This document shows, in pieces, positions 3 through 36,229 of a stretch of DNA of 38,743 nt (positions within the stretch are counted from its first letter, which is position 1; each line of letters begins with the position of its first letter). The translations under genes were made by a program, and so were the position numbers. Source of the stretch: Pseudolactococcus hodotermopsidis (GTDB lineage Bacteria; Bacillota; Bacilli; Lactobacillales; Streptococcaceae). The notes under the pieces were generated by a model. It saw only the letters and a program-made list of their open reading frames with translations, did not search any database and was not told where the DNA came from. The stretch spans positions 1 to 38,743 of the forward strand of contig NZ_BLLI01000013.1 of NCBI RefSeq assembly GCF_011170085.1. Reading direction: 5' to 3'.

Positions 3-650
3 GAGTTCAGCGATTCAGAAGTAGATTCAGATTCGGACGAAGATAGTGATTCGGAACAGGATTCCAATTCTGAAGAATACAGCGATTCGGAGGAAGATTC
101 GATTTCCGAAGAGTTCAGCGATTCAGAAGAGGATTCAGATTCGGGCGAAGATAGCGATTCTGAAGAGGAATCGAGTTCAGAGGAACACAGTGATTCGGAG
201 GAAGATTCGATTTCCGAAGAGTTCAGCGATTCAGAAGTAGATTCAGATTCGGACGAAGATAGTGATTCGGAACAGGATTCCAATTCTGAAGAATACAGCG
301 ATTCGGAGGAAGATTCGATTTCCGAAGAGTTCAGCGATTCAGATGAGGATTCAGATTCGAGCGAAGATAGTGATTCGGAACAGGATTCCAATTCTGAAGA
401 ATACAGCGATTCAGAAGCAGATTCAAGTTCTGAAGAGTTCAGTGATTCGGAGGAAGATTCGATTTCCGAAGAGTCAAGTGATTCAGAAGTAGATTCAGAT
501 TCGGATGAGGATAGTGATTCAGAACAGGATTCCAATTCTGAAGAGTTCAGCGATTCAGAAGTGGATTCAGATTCGGACGAAGATAGCGATTCAGAAACAG
601 ATTCAAGTTCTGAAGAACACAGCGATTCTGAAGCATCAAGTGATCCAGAA
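3..650 (+). repeat. Coding tandem repeat, 36-bp unit (SD/SE-rich stalk)
   Basis: The in-frame tandem repeat has a 36-bp (12-residue) unit, with about 18 units visible before it decays near nt 650. There is higher-order structure: the block starting at nt 3 recurs almost exactly at nt 219, a 216-bp or 72-residue period. The two 6-residue half units, xxSDSE and xDSxSE, alternate. Such arrays commonly change length by recombination and can be collapsed in short-read assemblies. Confidence 0.9.
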
Positions 651-1604
651 ATAGATTTAAATTCCGAAGAACATAGTGATTCGGAGGTAGATTTTAGTTC
701 TGAAAAATTCAATGAATCAGATTCAATTGTGGGCAATTATTTTGATAATAGAGCTAGAAATATTATGCCAAATGAAGGTAATTCTGATACGACCAGTCAT
801 GATTTGCCAAATAAACAGTCTTTCGACATTGCCAGTGCAAATACGTCAAATGATGAAACGCCCACACCATATGGTTCTCTGTACCCAATCGTGTTACCGA
901 GAACAGCTAAACAAGCAGTAACAACAGTTGAGCCTACTTTACCAAGCAGTGCTAGCGCGGTTGAAGAGATTGTGAAAATGTTGCCAGCGCTAGGCGGTCT
1001 ATTTGTCGGTGTCGGTGGTACTGCTGCCTTTGCACGTAAGCGAGATATTTTGATAACGATTTCAACTGATGGTTATCTCAAGCGTAGCGCAACATCTGCA
1101 AATGCTGACACCATTAGAAATCGTGACACGATTACTTTTGCTGAAAAAGCGCGTTTATCTGATAAAATTTTAATTTTCACAAATTGTGGGAAAATGATTT
1201 ACCGACCAATTTCTGAAGTAAAAAACTTTCGACTTACTGAAAATGATGAAGGGCAACACATTAGTGAGTTGACTTCGGATATTTTACCAGATGAAAGAGC
1301 TATTTTTGCGAAAATTGTTGAGAGATGTGATTGTTCGGATAACGTTATTGTTGCGACCCAAAATGGTTTAGTCAAGCAGATTCCAATTAGTGATTTGGCG
1401 CCGAGACAAGACTATAAGAAAAATAGTCAAGAATATATCCATTTGTCAACTGATGACGAAGTAATTTGTGTTGCAAATGTGACAACTGAGACTTTTTTGT
1501 TCACAGCAGATGATGGGCAAACTATTTATATCAATCCAGAAGATATACCGATTGAAAGGGTTCATGATTCAGGTGTTCAGATTGAGGCAATAATCAAAGG
1601 GTAA
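3..1604 (+). CDS. Ser-Asp/Glu repeat surface protein with ParC-CTD-like tail (5' partial)
   Basis: The reading frame is open from the window edge, so the N-terminus is missing. The first ~215 codons are an acidic repeat with a 12-residue period (consensus E-x-S-D-S-E-x-D-S-x-S-E), like the stalks of Sdr-type surface proteins. A non-repetitive ~110-residue linker follows. At nt 981-1043 there is a sorting-signal-like segment: LPALGG, about 12 hydrophobic or small residues, then RKR. The remaining ~186 residues are not a normal sorting tail. They contain four GyrA/ParC C-terminal-type repeats ([59 protein letters not shown]) and closely resemble the streptococcal ParC C-terminal domain. A paralogous tail ends the protein at 32333-36229. 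A stem-loop at 1611-1645 follows the stop codon. A stalk exposed outside and a cytoplasmic tail are inferred. Confidence 0.85.
1035..1601 (+). other. ParC C-terminal beta-pinwheel-like domain (within surface protein)
   Basis: This sub-domain starts immediately after the basic RKR that ends the hydrophobic segment. Four repeated motifs of the type hydrophobic strand, small residue, G-x-hydrophobic-K/R are spaced as in GyrA/ParC C-terminal repeats. The strings LIFTN-G--IYRP and LAP---Y-K-S recall the streptococcal ParC tail, as I remember it, rather than GyrA; no QRRGGKG GyrA-box is present. Family membership comes from pattern recognition, not a search. Confidence 0.75.
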
Positions 1605-9620: not shown

Positions 9621-9767
9621 ATACTCATTTAACTGTAAAAAAACTTACGAAACTTTTGTGCTAGATTCGTCAATTCTAGGTGACAAGGCAAAGCGTACAG
9701 GTGTACGGTGAGAGTTGTCAACGACGAAGTGGCGAAAAGTGTTAGCTTTTTATAGTTAAACGAGTAT
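9621..9767. repeat. RUP/BOX-like small inverted-repeat element upstream of ileS
   Basis: This 147-bp element has imperfect 21-bp terminal inverted repeats (19 of 21 match) that begin ATACTCATTTAACT and end AGTTAAACGAGTAT, next to TA dinucleotides. It has no coding capacity. The interior contains GTAC-N4-GTAC and TGTCAACGACGAAG. The ATACTC/GAGTAT ends recall streptococcal RUP/BOX elements, thought to be mobilised by IS630-type transposases. It ends 129 bp before ileS. Confidence 0.6.
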
Positions 9768-9896
9768 AGTCACAGTTGTATCGAAAAAATGGACTTAAAA
9801 ACTTTAAAAACAGATAAAAACTATTCTGGTTTTAGAGTTGGTTGCCCGTACTAAATTGTTACCCAAATTGATAATAAAGAAAGTGAAGTTATTAAT

Positions 9897-15522: not shown

Positions 15523-15551
15523 TTTACATTTCTGGAATATTATGTTATCTT
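15523..15551 (+). promoter_or_regulatory. Promoter of the importer/nitrogenase-like operon
   Basis: TTTACA at 15523-15528, a 17-bp spacer and TATCTT at 15546-15551. The transcript would start near 15558, leaving a short leader of about 32 nt before the TTG start at 15590. Confidence 0.5.
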
Positions 15552-15589
15552 TAAATAGTTACGAAATAAAAAATATTAGGAGAATTATT

Positions 15590-17182
15590 TTGAAGAAATT
15601 CATATCATTTATCAGTTTGTTAGTTTGTGCCTCAGTATTGGTTGCTTGTTCTGGCAAAAAGTCGGCAGATTCAAATCAATCGTCAATTCCTGCTACTGGT
15701 GCTGAAAAGATTGTCAAAATTGGTTGGCAAGATAGTGGCTTTTTGTCGCCATTTACATTTACGAAGGCGGGGCCTGGTGGCTACTTACGTAATAGTTTTA
15801 TTTTTGATGCTTTAACTTGGAAAGATGAGACGGGTGTGATTCCTTGGCTTGCTAGTGATTGGGAAATATCGGAAGATGAATTAATTTACACGTTTACGAT
15901 TGTTGACAATGCTAATTTTTCAAATGGTGAGGCTTTGACGGCATCGGATGTTGCATTTTCTTATGATTATTTCAAGAAATATGGTTATCAATGGAGTGCT
16001 GATATGTCTAAAATTGAAAAGACAGAAGTCATTGATAAAACACATGTTAAAATCACTTTAACAGAAAAATTTGTACCTTTTATTTCAGAAATTGCTGGTA
16101 TTTTACCTATTATTCCAGAATCAATTTGGAAAGATGTCACAGATCCTAAGCATTATTTGAAAGCAGACGCTTTGATTGGTTCAGGACCATTTGTCTTGAA
16201 AAAATATGATGAAGCTGCTGGTAATTATCAATTTGAGAAAAATTCTAACTATTTCAAAGGTAATGTAACGGTTGCAGGTGTTCAATATCTGGCTGTTCAA
16301 GATCGGATGTTGTCATTGACAAATAAGGAAATTGATGGAGGGATGACCTTTAGCCATGCGCAAAAAGTTGAGATGGAAAAGCAAGGGTTTACGGCTTTAG
16401 CAAGTGAGCCAACAGGTAGTGCTGTACGGATTGTTTTCAATCTTAACAAGAAACAATTTGCCTCTAAGGAATTGCGCCAAGGGATTGCCTATGCCCTAGA
16501 TCGGGCTGAGATTTCTAAAAAAGTATTGGGAAGCGATCAACCGATGGTCGGAAGTGCGGGGGTGATTCCACCAGACTCTGATTGGTATAATGAAAATGTG
16601 AAGCAATATGCCTACGATACGAAAAAAGCAGAAGAAATTTTTACTTCTTTGGGATATGAGAAAGTTGATGGGCATTATCAGGAGTTGAATCTGAAATTGA
16701 TTTCTAGTGGCGAATCAAAAGAGGCGTTGATCATGAAAGATATGCTAGCAAAAGTTGGTGTGACTTTGGAAGTTCAGGCGCTTGATGCGGCAGCATTTAA
16801 CCAAGCTTTGGCTGATAATGATTATGATATGGCGATTACAGGGCATATTGGTTATTCTGGCGATCCTGATTTCTTACGACTTTGGTTCTCAGGTCAAGCC
16901 TATAATACTTTTGCGGGCACTGCTGTTTTTGAAAATAAAGTTTATCAAGAGTTGGCAACTTTACAGATGTCACAATCAGACGAAAAAGCGCGTCACGAGA
17001 CGGTTAATAAAATGCAAGATATTTTAGCAGAAGAGTTGCCGACACTTTTACTTTATCATCGACCATTTTACTTTATGTACGATGCGACAGTCTTTGATGG
17101 TTGGTTTAATACAGCAAATGGTATTTCAGACGGTATTCCGTTGACGGATAATAAATTAGCCTTTGTTGATGTGACAAAATAA
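15590..17182 (+). CDS. ABC importer substrate-binding lipoprotein (SBP_bac_5, peptide/nickel type)
   Basis: The protein is an extracellular lipoprotein of 530 residues. I chose the TTG at 15590, with AGGAG 7 nt upstream, because it yields a proper lipoprotein signal (MKKFISFISLLVCASVLVAC) with the lipobox LVAC; an upstream ATG at 15542 overlaps the promoter. The mature part is a cluster C binding protein (WEISEDELIYTFTIVDNANFSNG, ALTASDVAFSYDYF, ELRQGIAYALDR), the fold used for oligopeptides, nickel chelates, haem and other ligands, so the substrate cannot be read from the fold. The permease gene follows after 22 bp. It heads a ten-gene operon ending with nitrogenase-like genes, so its ligand is probably linked to that enzyme. 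Confidence 0.88.
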   Translation: MKKFISFISLLVCASVLVACSGKKSADSNQSSIPATGAEKIVKIGWQDSGFLSPFTFTKAGPGGYLRNSFIFDALTWKDETGVIPWLASDWEISEDELIYTFTIVDNANFSNGEALTASDVAFSYDYFKKYGYQWSADMSKIEKTEVIDKTHVKITLTEKFVPFISEIAGILPIIPESIWKDVTDPKHYLKADALIGSGPFVLKKYDEAAGNYQFEKNSNYFKGNVTVAGVQYLAVQDRMLSLTNKEIDGGMTFSHAQKVEMEKQGFTALASEPTGSAVRIVFNLNKKQFASKELRQGIAYALDRAEISKKVLGSDQPMVGSAGVIPPDSDWYNENVKQYAYDTKKAEEIFTSLGYEKVDGHYQELNLKLISSGESKEALIMKDMLAKVGVTLEVQALDAAAFNQALADNDYDMAITGHIGYSGDPDFLRLWFSGQAYNTFAGTAVFENKVYQELATLQMSQSDEKARHETVNKMQDILAEELPTLLLYHRPFYFMYDATVFDGWFNTANGISDGIPLTDNKLAFVDVTK

Positions 17183-17204
17183 GGTAGAATGAGGCGTTAA
17201 ACAT

Positions 17205-18185
17205 ATGAAGCAGACAATCAGGTTTTATCTCATTATTTTTGCTAGTCTTATTGTTTTGCTCTTTCTTTTGCCAAGATTGCTTCCAGGAGGTCCTTTGGAT
17301 TTTATTTTAGGACGAGGTGATGGGCCAACGATGACTGCGGCGCAACAAGCAAAATTAATGAGCTACTACAATTTGGATAAATCAATTTGGCAACAGTTTT
17401 TGATTTATTTGCGTCATTTAGTACAGTTTAAATTTGGGGTGTCCTATTTATATCAGCAGCCAGTGATACAGTTGATTTTGACGAGATTGCCTTATACACT
17501 TGCTGTCGTTGGTATTTCTATTTTCTTTTCTTTTTTCATAGGTGTTTTATTGGGACTTTTTGTGGCAGATAAAAAAGAAACGCTAAGAAGTAAAGGCATT
17601 TTTATCGGGATGTTGACTTTATCGTCACTGCCAGAATATTTGATTGGTTTGTTACTTGTGATTCCTTTTTGTATTTTATTGAAATGGTTGCCGATGAGTG
17701 GCGCGCAAACGTCATTTTTAGAAAATGCATCAATTTGGTCTCAAATTAAAGATAGGCTGATACATGGCATTTTGCCTGTTTTAGCCTTGACTTTGGCAAA
17801 TGTACCAAGTATTTTCTTGATTGTTAGAAATCAAGCAAGGGAGATTTTAAAGCAACCTTATATTGAATTTGCTGAGATGAAAGGACTCAAACACCATCGA
17901 ATTATTTATCGGCATGTTTTTAGAAATATCTTATTACCAATTTTTACTTTGATGATGCAACGAATTGCGATTATCCTAACAGGAGCTATTTTTGTAGAGA
18001 CACTTTTTTCCTATCCAGGAATTGGTTTATTATTGCAAGAATCAATCTTATCACGTGATTATCCGCTAATGCAAGGCTTGTTTCTAATATTTGCCTTAGT
18101 TATTTTGAGTATTAATCTCTTGACAGATTTGTATTATCCAAAATTAGACCCGAGAATTGGAGGAAAAAATGTTGAAAAAATTTAA
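17205..18185 (+). CDS. ABC importer permease (DppB/NikB type)
   Basis: The 326-residue integral membrane protein has an N-terminal membrane helix, the large extracellular loop typical of DppB/NikB (GGPLDFILGRGDG to FGVSYLYQQPV), and five further helices. The coupling motif is EFAEMKGLKHHRIIYRHVFRNILLP, the EAA loop that contacts the ATPases. The ATG at 17205 follows the binding-protein gene by 22 bp. It overlaps the next gene by 17 bp, which argues for translational coupling. Confidence 0.9.
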   Translation: MKQTIRFYLIIFASLIVLLFLLPRLLPGGPLDFILGRGDGPTMTAAQQAKLMSYYNLDKSIWQQFLIYLRHLVQFKFGVSYLYQQPVIQLILTRLPYTLAVVGISIFFSFFIGVLLGLFVADKKETLRSKGIFIGMLTLSSLPEYLIGLLLVIPFCILLKWLPMSGAQTSFLENASIWSQIKDRLIHGILPVLALTLANVPSIFLIVRNQAREILKQPYIEFAEMKGLKHHRIIYRHVFRNILLPIFTLMMQRIAIILTGAIFVETLFSYPGIGLLLQESILSRDYPLMQGLFLIFALVILSINLLTDLYYPKLDPRIGGKNVEKI

Positions 18186-19674
18186 AGTTTCAACCTTTCT
18201 TTTTCTAATGATTTTGTTACTTAGTTTCTTTATGATGAAATTTTCGCCTTATGCACCTAATAGTATTGCATTTGAAATGTCAATGTTACCGAATCAGGCG
18301 CATTTACTTGGGACAAATGCAATGGGGCAGGATGTTTTGACTAGACTTGCGCATGCCACTTTTACAAGTCTCCTTTTTGGCTTGATTGTGTCCATGATTT
18401 CGACAGCTTTGAGTGCGATTTTAGGTTTATTAGCAGGTTTTCATCAATTATCAGATAAATTTATCAATGGTCTTGCTAATATTTTAATGGTTTTTCCAAA
18501 TTTGCTTATCATTTTGATTGTGGCAGCATTTACAGGTGGTGGTTTTCTTGAATTGATTCTGATGATGAGTTTTTTGACTTGGCCTGCCTATATGCGTCTG
18601 ATTCGCGCAGAAGTATTACAGCTCAAAGAAATGGCTTATGTTATTTCTGCTAAAAATTTTGGTGGCAGTATGTGGCATATTTTACGGCAACATATTTTGC
18701 CAAATATTAGTTCACTTGTCAAATCAAAATTTATTATCCAGTTTCGTGGGGCGATTATTGCTGAAACAGGTCTAGCTTTCTTAGGGATTGGTGATCCAAA
18801 CGTGATAACTTTGGGTAATATTATTAATGAGGGCTTTGTTAATAAACTCATCTTTTTAAATAACAGTTGGCTTTGGTTAGTTTTACCTGCTATTGTGATT
18901 TTGCTACTGACAACGATTTGTTTAACTTTTGCAAATGAACCTCAAAATAATCTTAAGATAACTTCAAACAAGAAGAAGTTGAAAAAGTCTCAAAATCCCA
19001 AAAATTATTTTGGAAATGCTAATTTGTGTGTGACTGATTTGACGCTTCAATTTGATGATAAACTAATATTAGAACAGGTGTCATTTGAAATGAAAGCGGG
19101 AGAAATCGTCAGTATTGTGGGGGCTTCGGGCGTTGGTAAAACGAGTTTTGTCAAAGCAATTTATGGCTTGTTACCGCCTGAAAATATGTCTGGCAATGTT
19201 CAAATAGCAGAGATTGATATGACAACGGCGGCTAAAAAAGAAGTCATCGGCAAGACATGCACCTACATTTACCAAGATGCAAATGCGGCATTTAATCCAG
19301 TTTTGACAATAGGCGAGCAGTTTTACGAGTATCAAAGTAATCGGCAAAAGGTGGCTGAAGCGCTTGAAAATGTTGGGTTAAATGAGACAATCTTGCAATC
19401 TTATCCGCATGAAAATTCAGGAGGAATGTTATCGCGCGCAATGATTGCTTTAGCGATTATCAATGAACCAGATTTTATTATCGCAGATGAATGTACGAGC
19501 GCTCTTGATCCGATATTGAAAAAAGAAATCGTTGACTTACTTGTCTCTAAAATCAAAAATCGTCAGATTGGTTTGTTATTTATTACACATGAATTAGAGA
19601 TTGCACATAGCATCTCAGATCGTATCTTAAGAATAGAAAATCAAAAATTTATTGAGGAGGTAGCGGTGATATGA
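18169..19674 (+). CDS. Fused ABC importer permease and ATPase (NikC-NikD type)
   Basis: A single 501-residue chain joins two subunits that are normally separate. Residues ~1-260 are a DppC/NikC permease (LGTNAMGQDVLTRLAHA, then an EAA-type loop AKNFGGSMWHILRQHILPN). From ~280 on it is an ATP-binding cassette with Walker A GASGVGKTS, Q-loop IYQDANAAF, signature NSGGMLSRAMIALAI, Walker B DFIIADE and H-loop FITHELE. A short Lys-rich linker joins the parts. I chose the ATG at 18169 (GGAGG 5 nt upstream) over 18157. It overlaps the next gene by 4 bp (ATGA). Confidence 0.88.
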   Translation: MLKKFKVSTFLFLMILLLSFFMMKFSPYAPNSIAFEMSMLPNQAHLLGTNAMGQDVLTRLAHATFTSLLFGLIVSMISTALSAILGLLAGFHQLSDKFINGLANILMVFPNLLIILIVAAFTGGGFLELILMMSFLTWPAYMRLIRAEVLQLKEMAYVISAKNFGGSMWHILRQHILPNISSLVKSKFIIQFRGAIIAETGLAFLGIGDPNVITLGNIINEGFVNKLIFLNNSWLWLVLPAIVILLLTTICLTFANEPQNNLKITSNKKKLKKSQNPKNYFGNANLCVTDLTLQFDDKLILEQVSFEMKAGEIVSIVGASGVGKTSFVKAIYGLLPPENMSGNVQIAEIDMTTAAKKEVIGKTCTYIYQDANAAFNPVLTIGEQFYEYQSNRQKVAEALENVGLNETILQSYPHENSGGMLSRAMIALAIINEPDFIIADECTSALDPILKKEIVDLLVSKIKNRQIGLLFITHELEIAHSISDRILRIENQKFIEEVAVI

Positions 19675-20396
19675 AATTGATTCAATGTGACAATTGTAGT
19701 AAATTTTTTGATGGCATATGTGCTTTTGAAGCGATTGATTTTTCGATTAATCGAGGTGAAATTATCAGCTTGATCGGAGAATCAGGGAGTGGCAAATCAA
19801 CGATTGCGGAATGTATCAGTGGCATCAAAAATCTGACAACAGGTAAAGTGACGAAAATTGCCAATTTGAAAATGCAGTATATCTTTCAAAATCCAGGTCG
19901 CTCTTTTAATCCAAAGTGGCAGATGGGAAAATCCTTGTTAGAGCCTTTGAAATTGTCGAAGAAACTTGAAAATAGCACTCAAATTGACGTTTATCTTGAC
20001 AAATTGAAGTTGGATAAACAGTTATTAACACAATATCCGCATGAATGTTCAGGTGGTCAGAAACAGCGTTTGGCGATTATTCGAGCGATTTTATGCGAAC
20101 CTGATTTGATTATTGCTGACGAGGTTACTTCTGGTTTGGATAGTGAAAATGAACAAGAATTACTGAAGATTTTTAAAGAAATCAGTCTGTCAGGTGTTGC
20201 GATACTTTTTATTACACACAATATTAAAACGATTGAAAATTTTTCAGATCAAGTTATTGTCTTAAAGCAAGGTAAAATTGTCGAAAAAGCGATAACGAAA
20301 ACGATTTTAGATGCCCCTAAACAAGACTATACTCAAAAATTATTGGCAGCTAGTCATTATTTTACATCAAGGAGAAAAGAATTTGTCAGAATTTAA
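19671..20396 (+). CDS. ABC importer ATPase (NikE/DppF type)
   Basis: The 241-residue ATP-binding cassette has Walker A GESGSGKST, Q-loop IFQNPGRSFNP, signature CSGGQKQRLAIIRAI, Walker B DLIIADE and H-loop FITHNIK. It would pair with the cassette of the fused NikC-NikD protein to drive import. The start (GGAGG upstream) overlaps the previous stop by 4 bp, and the end overlaps the next gene by 14 bp. Confidence 0.9.
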   Translation: MKLIQCDNCSKFFDGICAFEAIDFSINRGEIISLIGESGSGKSTIAECISGIKNLTTGKVTKIANLKMQYIFQNPGRSFNPKWQMGKSLLEPLKLSKKLENSTQIDVYLDKLKLDKQLLTQYPHECSGGQKQRLAIIRAILCEPDLIIADEVTSGLDSENEQELLKIFKEISLSGVAILFITHNIKTIENFSDQVIVLKQGKIVEKAITKTILDAPKQDYTQKLLAASHYFTSRRKEFVRI

Positions 20397-20997
20397 CAAA
20401 ATAATCCAGTTATATCCCAATAATGCCTTTGCAATCAATCAAGTTGTTGCACCATTTATTGATTTAGTGGATCAGTATGCGTTTGATTTTAATGATTTGT
20501 CGCATTACCAAGTGCTTTTGATAACGGAATTTGTGGATCAGGAGTTGTTATTTAAACACAAAGAAGCCATCTCTCAATTTCTTGATGAGAAAAAAATTGT
20601 TATCTATTGTGGTCAATTATTTCGAGATTTTATTCCCGGTGCGACTTTATTTATGCCTAAGAGATTGATTAGTTATCATGATTATGAGATTAAAATTGCG
20701 ACAAATTCTAGCATTTTCAAAGGTGTTAAGGCAGATGATTTGACTTATAATAAAGGCGTTGCAGGTTTTAATGCGCGTGGCTGGTATTTACCACCCAAAC
20801 ATGCTGAAATTTCCTTGACTTTTAAAACAGGTGGTGTGATTTCATATATTGACCGCGAAACGACTAAAGGGACGATTTTGGTACATGCAGGCCGTCAATT
20901 ATTTGGCTATAAAAATCAAGATAAATCAACGGATGTCATCTCTGTTAATGTTGCAAAGTGGGTAGAAGATGAACTCACAAGATTAGAGGGGAAATAA
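20383..20997 (+). CDS. Protein of unknown function, GATase/ThuA-like fold suspected (paralogue 1)
   Basis: The protein has 204 residues from a TTG at 20383 with AAGGAGA 7 nt upstream, overlapping the ATPase gene. I do not recognise a named family. The pattern YPNNAF, a Rossmann-like strand VLLITEF, an helix-rich K-EAISQFLDEKKIVIYCG stretch, and GVISYIDRETTKGTILVHAG looks like a class I glutamine-amidotransferase/ThuA-type alpha/beta fold without an obvious catalytic Cys-His-Glu triad. It is clearly related to the next gene (shared NAF, VVxxxG, GVIxYxD blocks). The operon context suggests a role in handling the importer's substrate or a product of the nitrogenase-like enzyme. Confidence 0.7.
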   Translation: MSEFNKIIQLYPNNAFAINQVVAPFIDLVDQYAFDFNDLSHYQVLLITEFVDQELLFKHKEAISQFLDEKKIVIYCGQLFRDFIPGATLFMPKRLISYHDYEIKIATNSSIFKGVKADDLTYNKGVAGFNARGWYLPPKHAEISLTFKTGGVISYIDRETTKGTILVHAGRQLFGYKNQDKSTDVISVNVAKWVEDELTRLEGK

Positions 20998-20998
20998 A

Positions 20999-21604
20999 TT
21001 GAGAAAAATAGGCGCATTGTATGCAGGAAATGCTTTTCATTATAAAACATTGAATGAACCAAAATTTGCACAGTTCATAGAAAAGATAATTTATTTGCCG
21101 GATTTGGCGGAGACTTCCTTGGCTGATTTGGCGGTGCTTTGGATTCCTTCTCAGTTACCGCTAGCTTTATTAGAAAAAAATAAAGAAAAAATTCGAGATT
21201 TTGCTGATAATGGTGGAACAGTTGCTGTTTTTGGTCCTCAACCGATTGACTTAGTCCCTAATTTAACTTGGCATGATGGGGTGACAAATTTTTGGTGGTG
21301 GACACAAGAGAATCCTGATAGCGGTTTGAAGATTGAGACACCTAGCTATCCGATTTTTAATTATTTGACTTTGGCAGATTGTACTTGGCATCAGCATGGT
21401 CATTTTGACTTACCAAAAGGAGCGGTTAGTTTGATTTCCAAAGATGATAGTGGTGTTATTTTTTATGTGGATAAGTTATCCAGTAAAGGAAATTGGGTTG
21501 TGACTTGTTTAGATCCTGACTACCATTATGGTGCTTACTTTATGCCTGCGACCGAGCGAATGCTTGAAGGCATGTTGTTATGGTTGGCTTATGGAGAGAT
21601 TTAG
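20999..21604 (+). CDS. Protein of unknown function, paralogue 2 of the preceding gene
   Basis: The protein has 201 residues from a TTG at 20999 with AGGGGAA upstream, one base after the previous stop. It aligns with its neighbour: YAGNAFHYKTL against YPNNAF, LEKNKEKIRDFADNGGTVAVFGPQPIDLVP against KHKEAISQFLDEKKIVIYCG, and GVIFYVDKLSSKGNWVV against GVISYIDRETTKG. Unlike the neighbour it has His/Tyr-rich stretches (WHQHGHFDLP, DPDYHYGAYF) that could bind metal or a cofactor. The function is unknown. The methyltransferase begins immediately after its stop. Confidence 0.7.
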   Translation: MRKIGALYAGNAFHYKTLNEPKFAQFIEKIIYLPDLAETSLADLAVLWIPSQLPLALLEKNKEKIRDFADNGGTVAVFGPQPIDLVPNLTWHDGVTNFWWWTQENPDSGLKIETPSYPIFNYLTLADCTWHQHGHFDLPKGAVSLISKDDSGVIFYVDKLSSKGNWVVTCLDPDYHYGAYFMPATERMLEGMLLWLAYGEI

Positions 21605-22354
21605 ATGACAGACAAACAAAAACCAGGCTATGTTTTTTTAACGGAAATTGGTAAAAAACGTCTGCGACCAGGCGGTATTGTGGCAACAAACTGGTTGTTT
21701 GAGCGAGGTAAATTTTCTAAGGATAAGAAAATTTTAGAAGTTGCTTGTCATCAAGGCGATACAGTGATGGAAATTGCTGAGAAATTTGGCAGTCAAGTTA
21801 TCGGTATTGACCTTGATTCTGAAGCCATTAAGCGTGCTAATTTTGCTATCAATGAAAAAAATTTGACGAACTTGGCATCAACTCAAGTTGCTAATGCCTT
21901 AGATTTACCTTTTCCTGATAATTATTTTGATTGTATCATCAATGAAGCGATGCTGACAATGCTAGATGAAGATGAGAAACAACAAGCTTTGGCAGAATAT
22001 TATCGTGTTTTGAAGTCTGGTGGTAAATTATTGACCCAAGATGTTTGTTTCAAGGTAAAAAATGAACAGACTAAAAATAAGTTACGACAAACAGTTAATA
22101 TGCCAATTTCCCCCTTGTCAATTGGTGAGTGGCGTGCGCTTTTTGCTAAGACGGCTTTTAAACATGAATTTCAAGTTGGTAAGTGCTCTTTGCTTAGTTT
22201 TTCTGGTTTACTACGAGATGAGGGCATTAGTGGGACAGTTCGGATTCTGAAAAATGGTCTAAAAAAGGAAAATCGTGCGCAACTATTGAAGATGATTCGT
22301 TTTTTTCAACGACAGAATAACGTGTGCTATATTGTAAATCATATGGAAAAATGA
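21605..22354 (+). CDS. Class I SAM-dependent methyltransferase
   Basis: The 249-residue protein has a Rossmann methyltransferase core: [16 protein letters not shown] is motif I (binding SAM; G-x-G is altered to C-H-Q-G), VIGIDLD is motif II with the acidic residue for the SAM ribose, [21 protein letters not shown] is motif III, and [13 protein letters not shown] is the UbiE-like post-IV region. The substrate is unknown. The gene directly abuts its neighbours (21604/21605), so it acts in the same pathway as the reductase genes downstream. A small-molecule or metal-cofactor substrate is an inference from context. Confidence 0.82.
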
Positions 22355-22377
22355 TAATATTAGAAAGGAATGTTAAA

Positions 22378-23157
22378 ATGTTAAAAATTGCAATTTACGG
22401 TAAAGGTGGCATTGGCAAATCAACAACATCCTCAAATATATCAGCAGCATTATCTGAAATGGGACTTAGAGTGATGCAAATTGGTTGCGATCCAAAGGCC
22501 GATTCAACGACAAATCTTTGTGCTGGCAAGCCAGTGAACACTGTTTTAAATATGCTCCGTGAAAAAGGTGATGAGATTGCGTTAGCTGACATTGTAAAAG
22601 AAGGCTATAATGGTGTACTTTGTGTGGAGGCTGGTGGTCCGACACCAGGTATTGGGTGTGCAGGTCGAGGGATTATTACGGCGTTTGATAAATTAGAAGA
22701 ACTTGGTGCTTATGAGATTTATCAGCCAGATGTTGTTTTGTATGATGTTCTTGGCGATGTTGTTTGCGGTGGCTTTGCTATGCCGATTCGTGGCGGTTAT
22801 GCTGAGCATGTGTTTGTTGTTAGTTCAGGTGAAAAAATGGCAATTTATGCGGCAGCCAATATTGCCTTAGCAATCAAAAACTTTAAGGGGCGTGGCTATG
22901 CCAAAATGCAAGGCATTATTTTGAATGCAAGAAATGTTGCCAATGAAATTGAGCTGGTCAATGAGTTAGCACAAGAAATCGAAACCAAAGTGACGAGAGT
23001 TTTACCTCGAAGTGCAAGCGTACAAGAGGCAGAAGAAAAGGGACAGACAGTGATTGAGGCCTTACCAGATTCTGAGATGGCTGATGAGTACCGTGCCTTG
23101 GTTAAACAAATTATGGAGGTGTGTGAGTATGTGCCTGAGTCTTTGTGCCTTAAATAA
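22378..23157 (+). CDS. NifH-like dinitrogenase-reductase family iron protein
   Basis: The 259-residue P-loop ATPase carries one [4Fe-4S] cluster shared between two subunits and passes electrons to the NifDK-type partner. Visible are the P-loop [13 protein letters not shown], the switch region GCDPKADST, and both cluster cysteines in the conserved settings PGIGCAGRG (about residue 93) and [12 protein letters not shown] (about 128). The dinitrogenase-reductase layout is complete. The ATG at 22378 has AAAGGA upstream and was preferred to an ATG at 22324. It overlaps the next gene by 29 bp. Length and motifs fit the wider nitrogenase-like superfamily (BchL/ChlL, CfbC, and uncharacterised groups), and no classical nif gene accompanies it. 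Confidence 0.92.
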
Positions 23158-24394
23158 GAAACCCTCATCAAGATTAGGCTATTCTTCCCCAGCGCATGGA
23201 GATTGGGGAATTGTTCGAGTTGGGATGTTGGTACCAGAAATTCATCAACTTTTTGTTTGTCCGTCGGCTTGTGGTCGTCACGGCGCAATAGGCGCTATTT
23301 TCCACGGTTATAAGGAGCGATTGTCTTATTTGTATTTGGATGAAGCTGATATTATTTCAGGTGGGTATGAAGAGGCTTTGCTTGAAAATATTGGCGAATT
23401 ATTACGACTTTTACCAGTTCGCCCTAAAGGGGTATTAATTGTTGTCAGTTGTATTGATGACTTGATGGGGACAGATGTTGACAGCTTACTTGATGAGTTA
23501 CGTGAGCAACAACCAGATATTGCTTTTAGTATGGGTCACATGAATCCAATTCAAAGTGATTCTAAATTACCACCAGCTGTCAATATTCAAAAAACAATTT
23601 ATAGTTTTTTGACGTCACAAGATATGACAGAAAAAACAATTTTGTTGTCAGGTATTAATGTTAAAATTGACGAGAAATCAGAATTGTATGAAGTGCTTGG
23701 TAATGCTGGTTTTCAACTCAAGCATATCAGTGATTGCAAGACGTATCAAGCCTATCAAGAGTTAGCAAAATCGCAGCTCAATCTACTTCTATCTCCCCTT
23801 GGAAAAATGGCGGCAATAGATATGACACAACGATTAAAAATGCCTTATTTTCAATTTAATTTTAGTTTTTCGATAAAAGAAATATTAGAAAATTATAAGC
23901 GATTGTTCGACACACTTGGCATAGCCAAAGTAGATTTTTCAAAACAGGAGAAAAGTCTTAGTCATAAAATAAAGCAAGCGCGTGAGATAGTCGGGCAGCG
24001 AGAGATTGTCATTGATGATACGGCAACATTTAGACCTTTTGGTCTGGCACGTTTTTTGTATGAAAATGGCTTTAATGTCAAGGCAATTTGTCTTGATCAA
24101 CTCAGAAAAATTGATCAGGAAGATTGTGACTGGATAAGTGATAATACTGAGATTCAACTTTATCTTCATAGTCAGTTTGATGCGCCACTCAAGCGTACAG
24201 AACAAGCTGAAATGCTTGCGATTGGCTTTGAAGCAGGCTATTATTTCACGTCAAATCATTTGGTTGAGCAACAATTAGACGAGGGCATGTTTGGGTTTCA
24301 GGGGATTGAAATTTTGCTTGATAAGATGATTCAAGCGAGTCTTAACACAAGCAGTCTTGAAATTGAAATTCATAGAGCAGGATTGGTGGTGTGA
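23129..24394 (+). CDS. NifD/NifE-like subunit 1
   Basis: The 421-residue protein belongs to the NifD/NifK/BchN superfamily by pattern: [12 protein letters not shown] matches the GPxGC ligand loop, [16 protein letters not shown] matches DIVFGG-KL, and [14 protein letters not shown] matches the -ECPVGLIGDD ligand segment. Two cluster cysteines of the P-cluster-type set are therefore present. The C-terminal half lacks the Cys and His that hold the Fe-Mo cofactor in true NifD. I chose the ATG at 23129 with GGAGG 9 nt upstream; it overlaps the NifH-like gene by 29 bp. It is probably a partner of the next gene in a heterotetramer. Confidence 0.8.
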
Positions 24395-24395
24395 A

Positions 24396-25493
24396 ATGAG
24401 TCAATTATGTGTCACATTGCCACCATTTGCACCAGATTATTCAGGTGTTTGTTCGGCTTTATTTGAATTGGGTGGTTTGATTGTCATCCATGATGCCTCG
24501 GGTTGTACGGGCAATTATACTGGTTACGACGAACCGCGTTGGTATAACTCAAAAAGTTTTGTTTATTGTTCAAGATTGCGTGAAATTGATGCGGTATTGG
24601 GCGATGATGAAAAATTAATCCAAAAAATAAAAGTAGCTGCAGAAGCCCTAAAACCAGAGTTTATTGCTATTTTAGGCTCACCTGTTCCTATGTTAATTGG
24701 GACAGATTTCACAGGCATTGCAATGGAAATCGAAGAACGCTTGGGGATACCGACCTTTGGCTTTGATACCACAGGACAATTGTTTTATCATCAAGGAATT
24801 AGTCTGGCGTTAGTCGCTTTGGCTAAAAAATATATCAAAGCACCTGAACAAAAAAAGAAACAACAGCTTAATATTTTAGGTGCTAGTCCGCTAGATTTTG
24901 GTATTAATGATAATATAACTCAGATTAAAAGTTTTTTTGTAGACAATAATTATGAAATCGGCGCTTGTTTTGCAATGGGAACAACAATTGATGACATAAA
25001 AAATGCCGCAACGGCAGCCTTAAATGTTGTGATAAGTCATTCAGGATTAGCACTTGCTAAATTAATGGCAAGAAAATATGACATTCCCTATATTTGTGGT
25101 ATACCAATCGGAGCGGGGACGACGCTTCTTAGAAAAATGACAACTTTGGTGGCTGAACCACTTGAGCTTGATGTTGAGAAAGAAACGCTTATCATTCATG
25201 ACCAAATCATTGCAAATTCAATTCGAGAAAGTTTAGCATGCCCTAAAAAAGTTGTTGTGGCATCTTGTTTTGATTTAGAACAGACTTTAAAAAGTGAGGG
25301 CGATTTTGTGATGAAGACAGAAAAAGAAATTATGACAGCTGTCAATGCCGGTTATAAAAGAGTAATTGGCGATCCATTAGTTTTAAGTTTGATTAAAGAT
25401 GAGACTGTTGAAAAAATCGCCTTGCCTCATGAGGCGGTTTCAAGCAAAATTTATCGCAAAGATTATCCAATTTTTAGAAATTTTAAGTTATAA
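24396..25493 (+). CDS. NifK/NifD-like subunit 2
   Basis: The 365-residue protein starts one base after the previous stop. Its N-terminus reads as a NifK-type ligand region (YSGVCSALFELGG, then HDASGCTGNYTGY), with EIDAVLGDDEKLI as the FGG-KL equivalent. The third ligand position seen in NifD (ECPVGLIGDD) is SPVPMLIGTD, so the cysteine is lost. No FeMo-cofactor ligands are seen in the C-terminal half. With subunit 1 it would form the [4Fe-4S]-bearing catalytic part that the NifH-like protein reduces. The substrate is unknown. Confidence 0.78.
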   Translation: MSQLCVTLPPFAPDYSGVCSALFELGGLIVIHDASGCTGNYTGYDEPRWYNSKSFVYCSRLREIDAVLGDDEKLIQKIKVAAEALKPEFIAILGSPVPMLIGTDFTGIAMEIEERLGIPTFGFDTTGQLFYHQGISLALVALAKKYIKAPEQKKKQQLNILGASPLDFGINDNITQIKSFFVDNNYEIGACFAMGTTIDDIKNAATAALNVVISHSGLALAKLMARKYDIPYICGIPIGAGTTLLRKMTTLVAEPLELDVEKETLIIHDQIIANSIRESLACPKKVVVASCFDLEQTLKSEGDFVMKTEKEIMTAVNAGYKRVIGDPLVLSLIKDETVEKIALPHEAVSSKIYRKDYPIFRNFKL

Positions 25494-30969: not shown

Positions 30970-31014
30970 TTTCAATAAAAAGCATAAGGAATGTTTGAAG
31001 AAGAAGAGGAGAAA

Positions 31015-31989
31015 ATGATAAATAACATTGATAAGTTTGAATACTATCGCCAGGAAAAAAAGATTAAGATAAGAGAAATTGTTGATAAAGGTATTTCTCG
31101 CTCAAGGTATCATCGTTTAACGACAGGCAATGCTAAATTAACGCCAGAAGATGCTGTGATTTTGACCCAGATATTGAATTTGACACCTTATGAGATTTAT
31201 TCGTCTGAATATTTGAAACTAGATTGGTTTGATATGTCACATCAAGCATCGCCTTATGAGACTTATGATATTATCAGCGTTCATGTGCAGATTTTGTCAG
31301 CTTACCAGTTTGTGGGGAATTATCCAAGTGCTTACAAGGAAGTTTTCAATACTTTTCGGACTAATCACTATATCAAGGAATTTTTTCCCTTGACGATTTT
31401 ACTGATGAAAATCTTGGAAGATGAGATTGCAGGTACAGATGTTTCAGATTTGCTTGATGAACTCTATCAGCAGTTAATGAAGCGAGATTTATGGACGAGT
31501 TATGAAGTTATGGTTATTTTTTCGCTTGCGGAGGTCAAATCTTTCAAGGAAATTAACTTGCTTGACAATTTGTATGATGTCCTAGATGATCGCTCGATTA
31601 TTGAATACGATGATAACTATATGATTAGCATTATCACGATTTTTCGTTATTCTTTGTTTGCTAAAAGTCTTGCATTGCGTGATGTCGCACGGATTAAGAG
31701 ATTTTATACGAAAATACAAGCATCGCGACATAATATTTTGACTTTGCAGGTATCGGTAATTCAGCGTTTGTCTGAGATTATTTACATGGAGCTAACTGGT
31801 GAGTATGCCAAAGCTGCCGTCAATCTCCAAAAGTTGTTGCTTGTTTCGGAGTTCGTCATTGAAAATAACAAGGTTCTTGGTAATCGTGATAAACTTTATG
31901 CAGAAGATGATTATGACCTTAGTCATGAAGAAATTGCTAAATGGCGTGAAGAACTCGGTGTGTCGCAAGATTATGATTTACTTACTTAA
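31015..31989 (+). CDS. Rgg/GadR/MutR-family-like transcriptional regulator
   Basis: The 324-residue protein has an N-terminal helix-turn-helix (KFEYYRQEKKIKIREIVDKG followed by RSRYHRLTTGNAKLTPEDA) and a long C-terminal all-helical domain. This is the RRNPP-type architecture of Rgg regulators, which respond to small peptides in streptococci and lactococci. I chose the ATG at 31015 (GAGGAG, 3 nt spacing); an ATG at 30991 in frame has no better site. It is followed by 343 bp of non-coding DNA with two dyads and then the giant adhesin gene, which is the likely target. A peptide pheromone gene was not seen nearby. Confidence 0.78.
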   Translation: MINNIDKFEYYRQEKKIKIREIVDKGISRSRYHRLTTGNAKLTPEDAVILTQILNLTPYEIYSSEYLKLDWFDMSHQASPYETYDIISVHVQILSAYQFVGNYPSAYKEVFNTFRTNHYIKEFFPLTILLMKILEDEIAGTDVSDLLDELYQQLMKRDLWTSYEVMVIFSLAEVKSFKEINLLDNLYDVLDDRSIIEYDDNYMISIITIFRYSLFAKSLALRDVARIKRFYTKIQASRHNILTLQVSVIQRLSEIIYMELTGEYAKAAVNLQKLLLVSEFVIENNKVLGNRDKLYAEDDYDLSHEEIAKWREELGVSQDYDLLT

Positions 31990-32332: not shown

Positions 32333-35300
32333 ATGATAAAAGCGTTTAAATTTAATCGTATTTCGTGGGGGAAGCGAAATAAAGGGGTTAGTTTGCTTTC
32401 AGGGAGGCATAATAAGGGACTTGCTTTTGGCGTTACTGGTAAACATACACCATTAGAAAAAGTATCACTTGGGCGGTATGAGCGTGTTTATAAGTTGAAT
32501 CGGTTGACGAAAGAGTTGAAAAAAACGCATTACCGTTCATGGAAATCTGGTAAGCAATGGTTTTATGCGAGTTCGGCTTTGGCGATTGTTGCAACAGCAG
32601 CAACGGTTGTGCATGGTAGCGGTTTATCAGCGCGTATTAGCAAAAAAATGGTTAGTTTTGCAAAAGGTATAACAACTTCTGAGTTGGCAAGTGCTGAACC
32701 ATTGGCTGGTGAAATTCTTTTACCAGATTCAAATGTCTCTTGGATGAATTTTACAGTAGAACCAGATATTGCAAATGATTTCAGGCATAATGTTTCAGAG
32801 TCATATGACTATACTTATGCTTTAGGTGGCGCTTTTGAATGGCGTGGTAATACGCTTGTGACTGGTACAAAAGGTAGTATTGTTGCAGGTTTTAACCAAG
32901 CAATTGATAGTGAACAAGACTTTAGTTTTTCAACGAATGTCAATGCACAAAATGCAGAAATGCCAGCTGCAGGTTTTTTTGTGTCAAATGTACATCCGTC
33001 AAATCTTGGCAATGAATTAGGGAAAGAAGATGGTAATGGGGAAGGCTCAGCAGGGTCCTTGGCGGATGGCGATGCACCAGGGAAATACATGTATTTTGTT
33101 GGTCTTCACAATGAGGGTGCTTATGTTGCTATTCTATCAAGTGGTGCGCTTTCTATCAAAATGGACGGTGGTACAAGTGGTCGTTATGCTGACCAAAACT
33201 ATACAGATATAGCTGCTAATGCTTTTACAGATGTTACAATATCAGGTGACTATAATCATACGACACATATTTTGACGATGAAATATCAGATTAACCAAAA
33301 TCGAGTTAATCGTGTTAATCCGAATGTTTATACAGGTGGTATAGGTTCTGACCGTGGCAATTGCCAGACAGTTAGGTATAAAATTCCAGAAAATTCAGCG
33401 GTTTATCTTGGCTATGTAGGAGATGGAGATGGTGGTTTGGGACGTCGAAATTCTGCGAATATTACGCTTGAATCTTTGTCTGGTTCTTATTTGAAAACAG
33501 TTGCAACTGTTAAGTTTGAAGATGATGCTGGTAATAAACTCGCTAATAATGCAACAGTTATAATTCCTCGTGGTGCTAAGATGGCTGTTGGTAATGAAGA
33601 TGAAAATGCTGGTGTTTACTATAATGCACCAGATTTAGGGTTATCAGGTTACCATTATGATAAAATTTTGAATCCATCTAAAACGGTTTTTGATATAGAT
33701 CCAAACTTGTCTGTCAAATGGCAACGTGATTTGCAACAATTTAAAAATTTCCAAATTAATCAAACAACTGAAAATACTGTTGTAGAGGGGAATTTAACGG
33801 ATACAGTTACCAAGGCGGTATCTGCGCAAGTGCAAACAGTTGCAGCTGGCTACTATTTTACGGGTCAACAAATAGGAACAGGTATTTCAAATGCTGTCTA
33901 TCAGTCTGATGGGTCAAGCGTTAATTTTAACTTTACAGCTGACAATACGTCAAATGGTTTTGGTTTGCTTGATAGTGTGCCACAAGAAAATAAATTCTAT
34001 GTTTTGCCGTCTGTTCAAAAGCGTATTTTGACGATTACGAAACCTGATGGCGCTGTTGTGACTAGAACACAAACATCAACAACAGGGATTGATTTTCCAA
34101 CACTTGGTGGTGAGTTTGTGATTCCTGGTTATCGTGCTAGGATTGATGGCGTACCGGTTGCGGATAATCAGATTAATTTAGGTATTCCTAGTGAGCCAAC
34201 AGATACTACTAATAACTTGAAATCAACAGATGATAGTGTGCCACAAGTTCATAATATTACATACGTTGGTGAAATGCAGAAAGCTAGAATCATTTACAAA
34301 GACATGACGGCTGGTGGGACGATTTTACTGACTGATACACCTCAGGATGGCGGGAGTGGCTCGGTTATTAATTACACGACGGCTGATAAACTTGCCAATT
34401 TTGAGACTCAGGGTTTAACGGTTAGCGCTAATTCTTTCGTGGATGGTGTGACGACCTTTGATACGGATGGCACGATTGTGCAAGAGTTTATCGTTGAGCT
34501 GGTTCACAAATCTCAAATTGTGACGGAGACGAAACGTCTTTTTCATGAGGTAATCTATAGGTATGCTGATGATGATCATTTTTCATCAGCAGAACTCTTG
34601 CCAGATAACTATACCATGACAGCTGAGGTTACTTATACTTATTATCGGGATATGACGAAAATACTGGGAAGTTCAGATGAGAAAATCACGGCAAATTTTG
34701 CTGATTATGCGGGTAATCCTAAGGCACCAGAATATACGTTAGATAGTGCTGCTATTGGTAATGGTGTAACAGTTGATGCAGTTGGTAATGTGACATTCCC
34801 AGCCCCTGATGTTATAATAGTCCCTAAGTACAAGGTTGAGCAGGCGGAAACAATTGCTAATACTAATAACAAAATAAATTTTAATGATGTTTCAAATAAT
34901 GATAAGACGACGAGTGTTGTGACTTATCATGAGGACTGGGTTTCTGATTCGTTGTGGGATTCTGATTCTACTTTTGACAGTGATTCATTGGAAGACAGCG
35001 ATTCATTGGAAGACAGTGACTTATTGGAAGACAGTGATTCTAAAGATGATGATATTGACGGCGACGGTATTCCAAATGATAAGGATAAAACACCTGATGG
35101 CGCGACTGATTCTAAGGATAATGGTTACCATGATGGCAATTTGACGACACCAATTAAAGGGCCAACAGATGTTGATGGCGATGGCATTCCGAATCAACAA
35201 GATCCTGACATTGATGGCGACGGTGTACCGAATGCAATAGACGATGATATTGATGGCGATGGCATTCTCAATGACTTTGATAAGACACCAAATGGCGATC

Positions 35301-36229
35301 AATCAGGGACGGCTATTCCTGATAATACATATGAAAATGGCGATAGGACTAAACCAATTGCTAATCCTTACGATGTAGATGGTGACGGTATTCCTAATAG
35401 TAAGGACGATGACATTGACGGTGACGGCATACCAAATGAGCGTGATGCTGATATTGATGGCGATGGTATTCCAAATGAAACGGATCCAACACCTAATGGG
35501 GCACCTGACCCAGTCATTCCAGAGGTTTTGCCAAATACAGATACGTTGGAAGAAATCGTTGAGAATTTACCTGCTCTCGGTGGCTTACTTGCGGGTATTG
35601 GCGTGACAACATTTTTGGCTAAAAAGCGAGATATTCTTGTGACGATAACGGCTACTGGTTGCATTAAGCGAACAACAGCAAGTTATCTGACAAGAGATGA
35701 GTATCTTACATTTAAATCTAATAAATCTATTATCTTTTCTGAAAAAGCCTGTCGCACGGATAGCCTCATGATTTTCACAAATCTCGGTCATGTGATTTAC
35801 AGATCAGTTACTGAGTTGAAAAATCTTCCTCTTGTTGATGAAAATGATTCTGGTAATCATATCAGCGAGCTTGTTTCTAATGTCGTTGCTGATGAAAAAG
35901 TTATCTTTGCGAAAATCTTTGACAAACTAGATGAGAAAAACAAAATTGCCATTGCGACTAAAAATGGTTTTGTTAAACAGGTCAAACTTTTAGAATTAGC
36001 ACCAGAAAAGGCGTATCGGCAAGTTAGCCAAGTCTACAATCTCTTACTTGATGACGACGAAGTTATTTTTGTCAATGATGTTTCAAAAGATACGCTCCTT
36101 TTTACCACAGAAGCTGGGCAAGCAGTAGTTTTTAAAGCCTGTGATATGCCTCTCAAGTTATCCACTGAATTAGGTATTAGAATGCCAGATTTAGGCGAAA
36201 GTGATAAATTGTCACATTGTTATAATTGA
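32333..36229 (+). CDS. Giant lectin/MucBP/thrombospondin-3 adhesin with ParC-CTD-like tail
   Basis: The 1298-residue protein starts at ATG 32333 (AGAGGA upstream). Residues ~66-96 are a KxYKxGKxW-type signal (YRSWKSGKQWFYASSALAI). An L-type lectin-like domain spans about 135-385, followed by MucBP-like repeats (~392-855), an SD-rich patch (SDSLEDSDSLEDSD, ~871-905), and thrombospondin type 3-like calcium-binding repeats DxDGDGIPN (~905-1060). The region LPNTD, then EEIV-N-LPALGG (1079-1084), a short hydrophobic stretch and KKR (to ~1099) is a degenerate sorting-signal-like segment. The last ~199 residues are ParC-CTD-like: DILVTITATGCIKR, LMIFTNLGHVIYRS, IAIATKNGFVKQ, LLFTTEAGQAVVF. It is paralogous in its tail to the protein at 3-1604. 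Confidence 0.88.
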   Translation: MIKAFKFNRISWGKRNKGVSLLSGRHNKGLAFGVTGKHTPLEKVSLGRYERVYKLNRLTKELKKTHYRSWKSGKQWFYASSALAIVATAATVVHGSGLSARISKKMVSFAKGITTSELASAEPLAGEILLPDSNVSWMNFTVEPDIANDFRHNVSESYDYTYALGGAFEWRGNTLVTGTKGSIVAGFNQAIDSEQDFSFSTNVNAQNAEMPAAGFFVSNVHPSNLGNELGKEDGNGEGSAGSLADGDAPGKYMYFVGLHNEGAYVAILSSGALSIKMDGGTSGRYADQNYTDIAANAFTDVTISGDYNHTTHILTMKYQINQNRVNRVNPNVYTGGIGSDRGNCQTVRYKIPENSAVYLGYVGDGDGGLGRRNSANITLESLSGSYLKTVATVKFEDDAGNKLANNATVIIPRGAKMAVGNEDENAGVYYNAPDLGLSGYHYDKILNPSKTVFDIDPNLSVKWQRDLQQFKNFQINQTTENTVVEGNLTDTVTKAVSAQVQTVAAGYYFTGQQIGTGISNAVYQSDGSSVNFNFTADNTSNGFGLLDSVPQENKFYVLPSVQKRILTITKPDGAVVTRTQTSTTGIDFPTLGGEFVIPGYRARIDGVPVADNQINLGIPSEPTDTTNNLKSTDDSVPQVHNITYVGEMQKARIIYKDMTAGGTILLTDTPQDGGSGSVINYTTADKLANFETQGLTVSANSFVDGVTTFDTDGTIVQEFIVELVHKSQIVTETKRLFHEVIYRYADDDHFSSAELLPDNYTMTAEVTYTYYRDMTKILGSSDEKITANFADYAGNPKAPEYTLDSAAIGNGVTVDAVGNVTFPAPDVIIVPKYKVEQAETIANTNNKINFNDVSNNDKTTSVVTYHEDWVSDSLWDSDSTFDSDSLEDSDSLEDSDLLEDSDSKDDDIDGDGIPNDKDKTPDGATDSKDNGYHDGNLTTPIKGPTDVDGDGIPNQQDPDIDGDGVPNAIDDDIDGDGILNDFDKTPNGDQSGTAIPDNTYENGDRTKPIANPYDVDGDGIPNSKDDDIDGDGIPNERDADIDGDGIPNETDPTPNGAPDPVIPEVLPNTDTLEEIVENLPALGGLLAGIGVTTFLAKKRDILVTITATGCIKRTTASYLTRDEYLTFKSNKSIIFSEKACRTDSLMIFTNLGHVIYRSVTELKNLPLVDENDSGNHISELVSNVVADEKVIFAKIFDKLDEKNKIAIATKNGFVKQVKLLELAPEKAYRQVSQVYNLLLDDDEVIFVNDVSKDTLLFTTEAGQAVVFKACDMPLKLSTELGIRMPDLGESDKLSHCYN
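35044..35510 (+). other. Thrombospondin type 3-like Ca-binding repeats (within adhesin)
   Basis: At least seven DxDGDGIPN-type units are visible (DIDGDGIPND, DVDGDGIPNQ, DIDGDGVPNA, DIDGDGILND, DVDGDGIPNS, DIDGDGIPNE, twice). They bind calcium in known family members and typically form a rod. Confidence 0.85.
35627..36226 (+). other. ParC C-terminal beta-pinwheel-like domain (within adhesin)
   Basis: The region starts directly after the KKR, and four pinwheel-type repeats are visible. Close similarity to the tail at 1035-1601 (EEIV--LPALGGL--G-G-T---A-KRDIL, FTN-G--IYR, KNGFVKQ--LLELAP). Evidence is by reading; no structure prediction was made. Confidence 0.72.

Follow-up and report, generated by a model that had tools for sequence, protein, structure and literature searches.

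The window analyzed here, a stretch of 38,743 nucleotides of contig NZ_BLLI01000013.1 from Pseudolactococcus hodotermopsidis, encodes a giant surface adhesin whose C-terminal end resembles the C-terminal domain (CTD) of ParC, the A subunit of topoisomerase IV (see the table). An earlier note on this DNA had described the protein as an adhesin with a membrane segment followed by a ParC-like tail, a layout that was borne out by the open reading frame, by profile and structure matches and by its recurrence in other proteins. The signal peptide that had been claimed for it carries a KxYKxGKxW motif that scored 26.2 bits against TIGR03715 (cut-off 18), the Pfam profile PF19258 giving 20.2, under its cut-off of 23.6, and the MucBP-like part corresponds to a MucBP_2 match above the PF17965 cut-off. 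The DxDGDGIPN repeats were weakly scored (a TSP_3 match with an E value of only 0.094), and the supposed lectin part found no support, because neither the Pfam profiles nor a Protein Data Bank (PDB) sequence search with positions 32693-33640 returned a lectin match. At the C-terminal end the protein displays, in this order, LPNTD, the hydrophobic segment NLPALGGLLAGIGVTTFLA, the basic cluster KKR and 199 more residues. Sortase-type surface proteins are generally described as ending a few residues past the membrane segment.

The residues past the basic cluster are related to ParC, as had been proposed. In a search with the whole protein they matched TIGR01061 (parC_Gpos) with an E value of 5.9e-22 at model positions 493-689 of 737, and they matched the solved ParC CTD 1wp5 with an E value of 3.8e-14, the homology spanning aa 1096-1295 of the adhesin. 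The best matches of the tail were thus to the ParC CTD and not to a known wall-associated family, and a pinwheel was indeed predicted for it. This pinwheel is incomplete, the alignment covering residues 2-201 of the 323 in the 1wp5 chain (about the first two-thirds), and the tail would form an open pinwheel of about four blades, a number estimated from its length. Pfam and TIGR profile searches gave no match to a topoisomerase cleavage core anywhere in the adhesin. The genome's own ParC is encoded by a separate open reading frame of 821 aa on contig C56, and that of GyrA lies on contig C36, where the gene order (loci L011 and L115) is gyrA, a gene that we take to be ApbE-like and a sortase gene.

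Table. Features of the two tail-bearing genes in the window (aa, residue numbers of the adhesin)
Feature	Position	Strand	Basis or remark
Surface adhesin gene with ParC-CTD-like tail, 1,299 aa	32330..36229	+	start GTG 32330 or ATG 32333
KxYKxGKxW signal peptide motif, aa 65-86	32522..32587	+	TIGR03715 over cut-off
MucBP_2 domain, aa 650-726	34277..34507	+	PF17965 44.4 bits, cut-off 23.4
DxDGDGIPN (TSP3-like) repeats	35035..35490, approximate, limits by eye	+	sequence
LPNTD, LPxT-like sorting motif without G, aa 1067	35528..35542	+	sequence
Hydrophobic segment, 19 residues	35564..35620	+	mean Kyte-Doolittle 1.46
Basic cluster KKR, directly after the hydrophobic segment	35621..35629	+	sequence
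ParC-CTD-like tail, 199 aa, shortened pinwheel	35630..36226	+	profile and structure matches
Second tail-bearing surface gene (C13a)	3..1604	+	5' side cut by contig end
Hydrophobic segment of the second gene product, then RKR	978..1034	+	sequence
ParC-CTD-like tail of the second gene product, 186 aa	1044..1601	+	profile search

A search of the window's own genome (2.30 Mb in 138 contigs, 97 percent complete) revealed eight tails whose frame extends to a stop codon, two of them on the window contig and one each on contigs C30, C32, C34, C41, C68 and C103. The architecture described in the earlier note stood, but that note had overlooked both the multicopy family and the LPxT-like motif ahead of the hydrophobic segment. 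An isolated fusion or an assembly join was ruled out, since the layout occurs eight times on seven contigs and again in a second species, and the contig extends on both sides of the window copy; because of these eight recurrences in the genome and one in a sister species, the layout is not due to chance. In this genome, an LPxT motif (LPSS in C13a and IPST in C103, as variants), a hydrophobic segment and a cluster of two to four K/R residues lead up to each of the eight tails, and 183-199 residues follow the basic cluster in the tail-bearing proteins. Four of the eight genes (the window adhesin and those on C30, C34 and C41) are complete from signal to tail, and the others are cut on their 5' side at a contig end. 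Besides the MucBP_2 domain, present in the window and C30 proteins, the ectodomains include a Pectate_lyase_5 adhesive domain (C30, C34 and C41), LED repeats (C32) and, in most copies, Ser/Asp-rich repeats. In addition, C65 opens with the last 36 aa of a further tail, and C44 bears a decayed ParC-like tail (L106, about 9709-9948, minus strand), which contains a stop and lies in another frame at and beyond the stop codon of a 532-aa KxYKxGKxW protein whose reading frame ends in LTRKRDFDN. Counting the C65 fragment, an S[HKR]C[FY] motif closes five tails, with one or two residues between it and the stop. The KxYKxGKxW signals detected in this genome at an E value of 0.001 or better were 14, distributed among the four complete tail genes, three tail-less proteins (one on C10 and two on C44) and seven genes running off their contigs; a fifteenth, weaker signal on C68 (L116, 920-3329) belongs to a gene that looks frameshifted, its signal part and its tail-less LPDAST-type end being in different frames.

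When 12 genomes of the genus were compared, tails were found in two, the window's own genome and that of the sister species (G003), where a single tail closes a 3,260-aa KxYKxGKxW protein with LPNTEG, a hydrophobic segment and RRK. The nine tails referred to hereafter are this one and the eight that run to a stop codon. Ten KxYKxGKxW signals were detected in the sister species at E 0.001 (the longest of their open frames measuring 7,008 aa) as against one tail; among the remaining nine proteins, four end beyond the stretches read. Among 196 genomes of the family, a search at E 1e-12 gave nine matches in the window's genome (the eight tails and ParC), two in the sister species (its tail and ParC) and one or none in each of the others. 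At E 1e-42, with ParC itself below the threshold, only the window's genome was left among 395 order and 398 class genomes, draws that evidently did not include the sister species. The search for the tail beside sortase-like segments in other lactic acid bacteria, which had been proposed, accordingly found it in one sister species and not in the other genomes sampled from the family, the order and the class.

A broader distribution of the tail was also sought without success. A scan of contigs from 84,980 species, from which records close to the window's own may be left out, yielded 11 loci that were all read as GyrA or ParC; eight of the 11 frames contain PHGD, which we take to be a GyrA/ParC core motif, and the remaining three are gyrase-like, two of them being cut on their 5' side. 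No tail on a further nontopoisomerase protein was returned by the protein searches, which gave 117 matches of 722-991 aa, all with PF00521, in the first round and then only the query's own protein and finally none, although these searches restrict candidate length and depend on words in common and could miss a diverged tail carried by a protein of another length. No tail was found in the viral contigs searched, and the plasmid search gave 11 records; among the eight matches listed, six carried a parC or gyrA annotation and two were unannotated at the match. Among the titles listed for an open-access library, none dealt with an adhesin or sorting-signal protein bearing a gyrase- or ParC-type CTD.

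A 40-row tree placed the nine tails in one clade (100/100) on a long branch, and this clade grouped with Streptococcaceae ParC (82/82) as opposed to Ligilactobacillus ParC and GyrA; when the tails were held with the genus's own ParC, the p-AU was 0.22, a value accompanied by a program warning about long branches. The tail thus seems to be a domain captured long ago, and once, from ParC. The closest relative of the tail of the sister species is that of C103 (40 percent; 93/85 in the tree). The tail gene of the sister species and an N-terminal fragment on contig C72 both neighbor a gene recognized by eye as presumably thrS, the products of the two neighbors being 93 percent identical over 348 aa, and of 14 N-termini, that of the C72 fragment best matched residues 1 to 1,000 of the sister-species protein (40 percent, 1,031 columns). 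We infer that a tail-bearing gene located at thrS predates the split of the two species, and our guess is that the C72 gene has its end on C103. Within the first 1,000 residues, the match between the window protein and that of the sister species was limited to 46 aa of the signal region, and the C30, C34 and C41 proteins contain Pectate_lyase_5; hence, the tail is carried by ectodomains of at least two dissimilar kinds. Between the C30 and C68 tails (L014 1561-2265 and L016 2365-3066), 455 of the last 462 bases are identical and the sequences upstream diverge, which suggests that tail copies still recombine, and this pair shows a sign of recent gene conversion. All nine tails are open and their dN/dS is well below 1, values indicating that the tail layout is maintained by selection.

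The positive-inside argument, by which the tail had been assigned to the cytoplasmic side, holds for the window copy, with KKR after its hydrophobic segment. Cysteine accounts for 19 of 1,759 tail residues (1.1 percent) versus 7 of 7,751 residues in the nonrepeat ectodomains (Fisher test, 2e-9). The corresponding values were 15 of 4,420 (0.34 percent) in nine other open reading frames of the window taken as cytosolic, which were hand-picked and four of which lack an identification, and 7 of 4,903 (0.14 percent) in the matching region of 24 ParC proteins, the tails being richer in cysteine than ParC. Taken together, the basic cluster and the cysteine contrast supported, indirectly, that the tail is on the cytoplasmic side of the membrane.

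As described in PMC3297441, in the textbook sorting signal the motif is followed by a hydrophobic domain and then by a tail with positive charges, and sortase cuts between T and G. LPxTG was present in none of the nine tail-bearing proteins and in 12 of the 19 KxYKxGKxW proteins of the genus that have a membrane end but no tail (Fisher test, 0.003), a count in which one FPETG was scored as LPxTG and which becomes 12 of 18 without a doubtful row from C68 (two frames). The tail-less rows derive from 28 candidate ends, of which 13 were dropped (four without a stop in the stretch and nine without a hydrophobic end), and from four added proteins of the window's genome (C10, C44, C44a and that on C68); their stretches were located by calculation, and the end of the gene may fall outside some of them. 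LPxT itself is kept in seven of the nine tail-bearing proteins as LPNT or LPTT, the exceptions being C13a and C103. An unusually weak hydrophobic segment in the tail-bearing proteins was considered but is not claimed, since their summed values on the hydrophobicity scale overlapped those of tail-less proteins (9 versus 5). As to the export route, nothing over the TIGR03714 cut-off for SecA2 was detected in the 97 percent complete genome, which gave one SecA-type match at E 1e-100 or better in a search that also matches ordinary SecA in control genomes.

The surface charges of the tails have changed relative to ParC. The ParC columns were retained in 476 of 573 hydrophobic, 64 of 152 basic, 58 of 124 acidic and 123 of 215 other polar tail cells. 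Basic-column retention was 0.39 in the tails and 0.48 in 77 GyrA/ParC domains of comparable identity (p 0.0013, Mann-Whitney test), although 52 of these 77 controls fell inside the range of the tails and the genus's GyrA gave 0.36 (five rows); lost basic columns as proof of lost DNA binding, which the first count had suggested, were weakened by this control, and such a loss is not claimed. Net charge per 200 aa ranged from -6.0 to +8.1 in the 117 GyrA/ParC domains from the protein search, many of them near copies of one another, and from -13.0 to +7.7 in the tails, five of the nine tails and none of the 117 domains being at -8 or below. The window tail (-2 including KKR, -5 without it) is within the GyrA/ParC range, and the tails of C103 and the sister species are basic (pI 9.41, net +7); compared with 26 ParC rows, the charge difference had a p of 0.03, yet with these two tails on the basic side. 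Since strongly acidic tails (five) occur beside basic ones (two), no function shared by all of them can depend on a net basic surface, although single copies may bind DNA. The DNA-wrapping function that had been attributed to the tail was not sustained by its partial pinwheel or by the mixed outcome of the charge and basic-column comparisons.

We favor, tentatively and with slightly less than even confidence, the view that these proteins constitute an adhesin family in which the end of the sorting signal has been replaced by a folded cytoplasmic ParC-derived domain, so that the adhesin is uncleaved, retained in the membrane and probably docks a partner. This view is built on the homology, predicted fold, recurrence and selection described above and on the indirectly supported cytoplasmic side of the tail, whereas retention, noncleavage and docking are inferences. 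The KxYKxGKxW signal would export the adhesin and, once the ribosome frees the C-terminus, the tail would fold in the cytosol into an open pinwheel that, together with the basic cluster, could not pass the translocon, so that the weak hydrophobic segment would be kept in the membrane. Most copies would probably be uncleaved because their motifs are LPxT-like without G. The adhesin would then be a single-pass membrane protein whose cytoplasmic head retains it and probably docks a cellular partner. Several observations weigh against this proposal. No partner gene or docking site was found for the proposed docking, five sortases are encoded in the genome and, within this genome alone, the LPxTG contrast (none of eight tail-bearing versus one of four tail-less proteins) was not significant, so a missing G after LPxT may simply be tolerated in this species. 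Moreover, the tail-less C10 and C44 proteins have hydrophobic segments just as weak, which makes the tail dispensable for stop-transfer. The C103 and C13a tails stop about 10-16 residues before the others, and C103 may be eroding, since its similarity continues beyond its stop.

Two other explanations appear unlikely and carry about equal weight. In the one advanced by the earlier note, the cytoplasmic pinwheel still binds DNA and thereby ties the chromosome to the adhesin and to the place where it sits in the membrane, which would agree with a true homologue of a DNA-wrapping domain that retains its predicted fold, with the basic C103 and sister-species tails paired in the tree, with the charge of the window tail and with the basic columns of the genus's GyrA, as few as those of the tails; the strong acidity of five tails, the lower basic-column retention (overlapping controls, many near copies, notwithstanding) and the absence of the final third of the domain argue against such a nucleoid tether. 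In the other, sortase cuts at LPxT and transfers the adhesin to the wall, the tail acting as a stop-transfer brake that is then degraded. The LPxT of seven proteins, the conserved hydrophobic segment and basic residues, the five sortase genes and the tail-less C44 and C44a proteins, which also end in LPxT without G, fit a cleaved product, but LPxTG is absent from all the tail-bearing proteins, and a mere brake needs no conserved fold of almost 200 residues where elsewhere a few K/R suffice.

Ranking after both, and improbable in our judgment, is a role in adhesion sensing or competition, in which the head would bind a cytoplasmic partner such as an SMC-type protein or a subunit of topoisomerase IV, adhesion thereby altering chromosome handling or transcription. 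The ParC CTD serves elsewhere as a protein-docking site, a MukB-topoisomerase IV complex (4mn4, by title) being among the fold matches, and a conserved core with variable surface charges would suit this role; nevertheless, an unsystematic inspection by eye of the loci read showed no conspicuous partner gene next to the copies, and a lactococcus-type cell is not expected to contain MukB. A functionless fusion accident that recombination has amplified is in our view very unlikely, since the nine tails are open, have a low dN/dS and are kept in two species, even though the C30/C68 pair reveals recombining copies, one copy has decayed and C103 is possibly losing its end.

If the folded, ParC-derived cytoplasmic head is what these adhesins have in place of a sorting-signal end, they depart from each system that they resemble. 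The tail shares with the ParC CTD (TIGR01061, 1wp5) its homology, its predicted pinwheel and its place among Streptococcaceae ParC, but it lacks the topoisomerase core, corresponds to about the first 200 of 323 residues, is located on a membrane-spanning adhesin and has altered surface charges that are strongly acidic in five of nine copies. Like LPXTG sortase substrates, the proteins have a signal peptide, a giant repeat-rich ectodomain, an LPxT-like motif, a hydrophobic segment and a basic cluster; unlike them, they lack the G after LPxT and continue past the basic cluster with a folded domain instead of a few residues. They resemble the KxYKxGKxW serine-rich repeat adhesins in their TIGR03715 signal, their adhesive domains and, in most copies, their Ser/Asp-rich repeats, and differ in the ParC-derived tail and in the lack of a SecA2 match over the cut-off; the window and C30 proteins share MucBP_2 with the MucBP_2 adhesins, from which the tail, the Pectate_lyase_5 domains and the LED repeats set the family apart. 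A selected, folded, topoisomerase-derived domain apparently inside the cell on several adhesins would mean either a new anchoring of giant surface proteins or an outside contact physically linked to a cytoplasmic partner. It would also illustrate domain capture cleanly, the tail having been reused from a housekeeping enzyme that is essential, with its fold preserved while its surface charges drifted, and the tail is small enough to be purified, which makes the question directly testable. A new transmembrane class, in which adhesion outside the cell is physically coupled across the membrane to a head of topoisomerase origin with DNA or a chromosome-handling protein as its ligand and in which attachment positions, tethers or signals to the nucleoid, seems to us a rather doubtful extension.

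Immediately upstream of the adhesin gene lies a gene (30991-31989, forward strand) for a helix-turn-helix (HTH) regulator whose HTH_3 match is under its cut-off, and a promoter and terminator scan gave nothing telling. Elsewhere in the window, positions 15542-25493 (forward strand) harbor a nitrogenase-like operon in this lactococcus-type genome, with an ATP-binding cassette (ABC) transporter of the oligopeptide/nickel type, a methyltransferase (21605-22354) and two NifE/D-like proteins. Its NifH-like protein (22324-23157) matched TIGR01287 with an E value of 4e-104, under the cut-off and, at E 1e-30, a NifH-like match was obtained among the 12 genus genomes in that of the window only.

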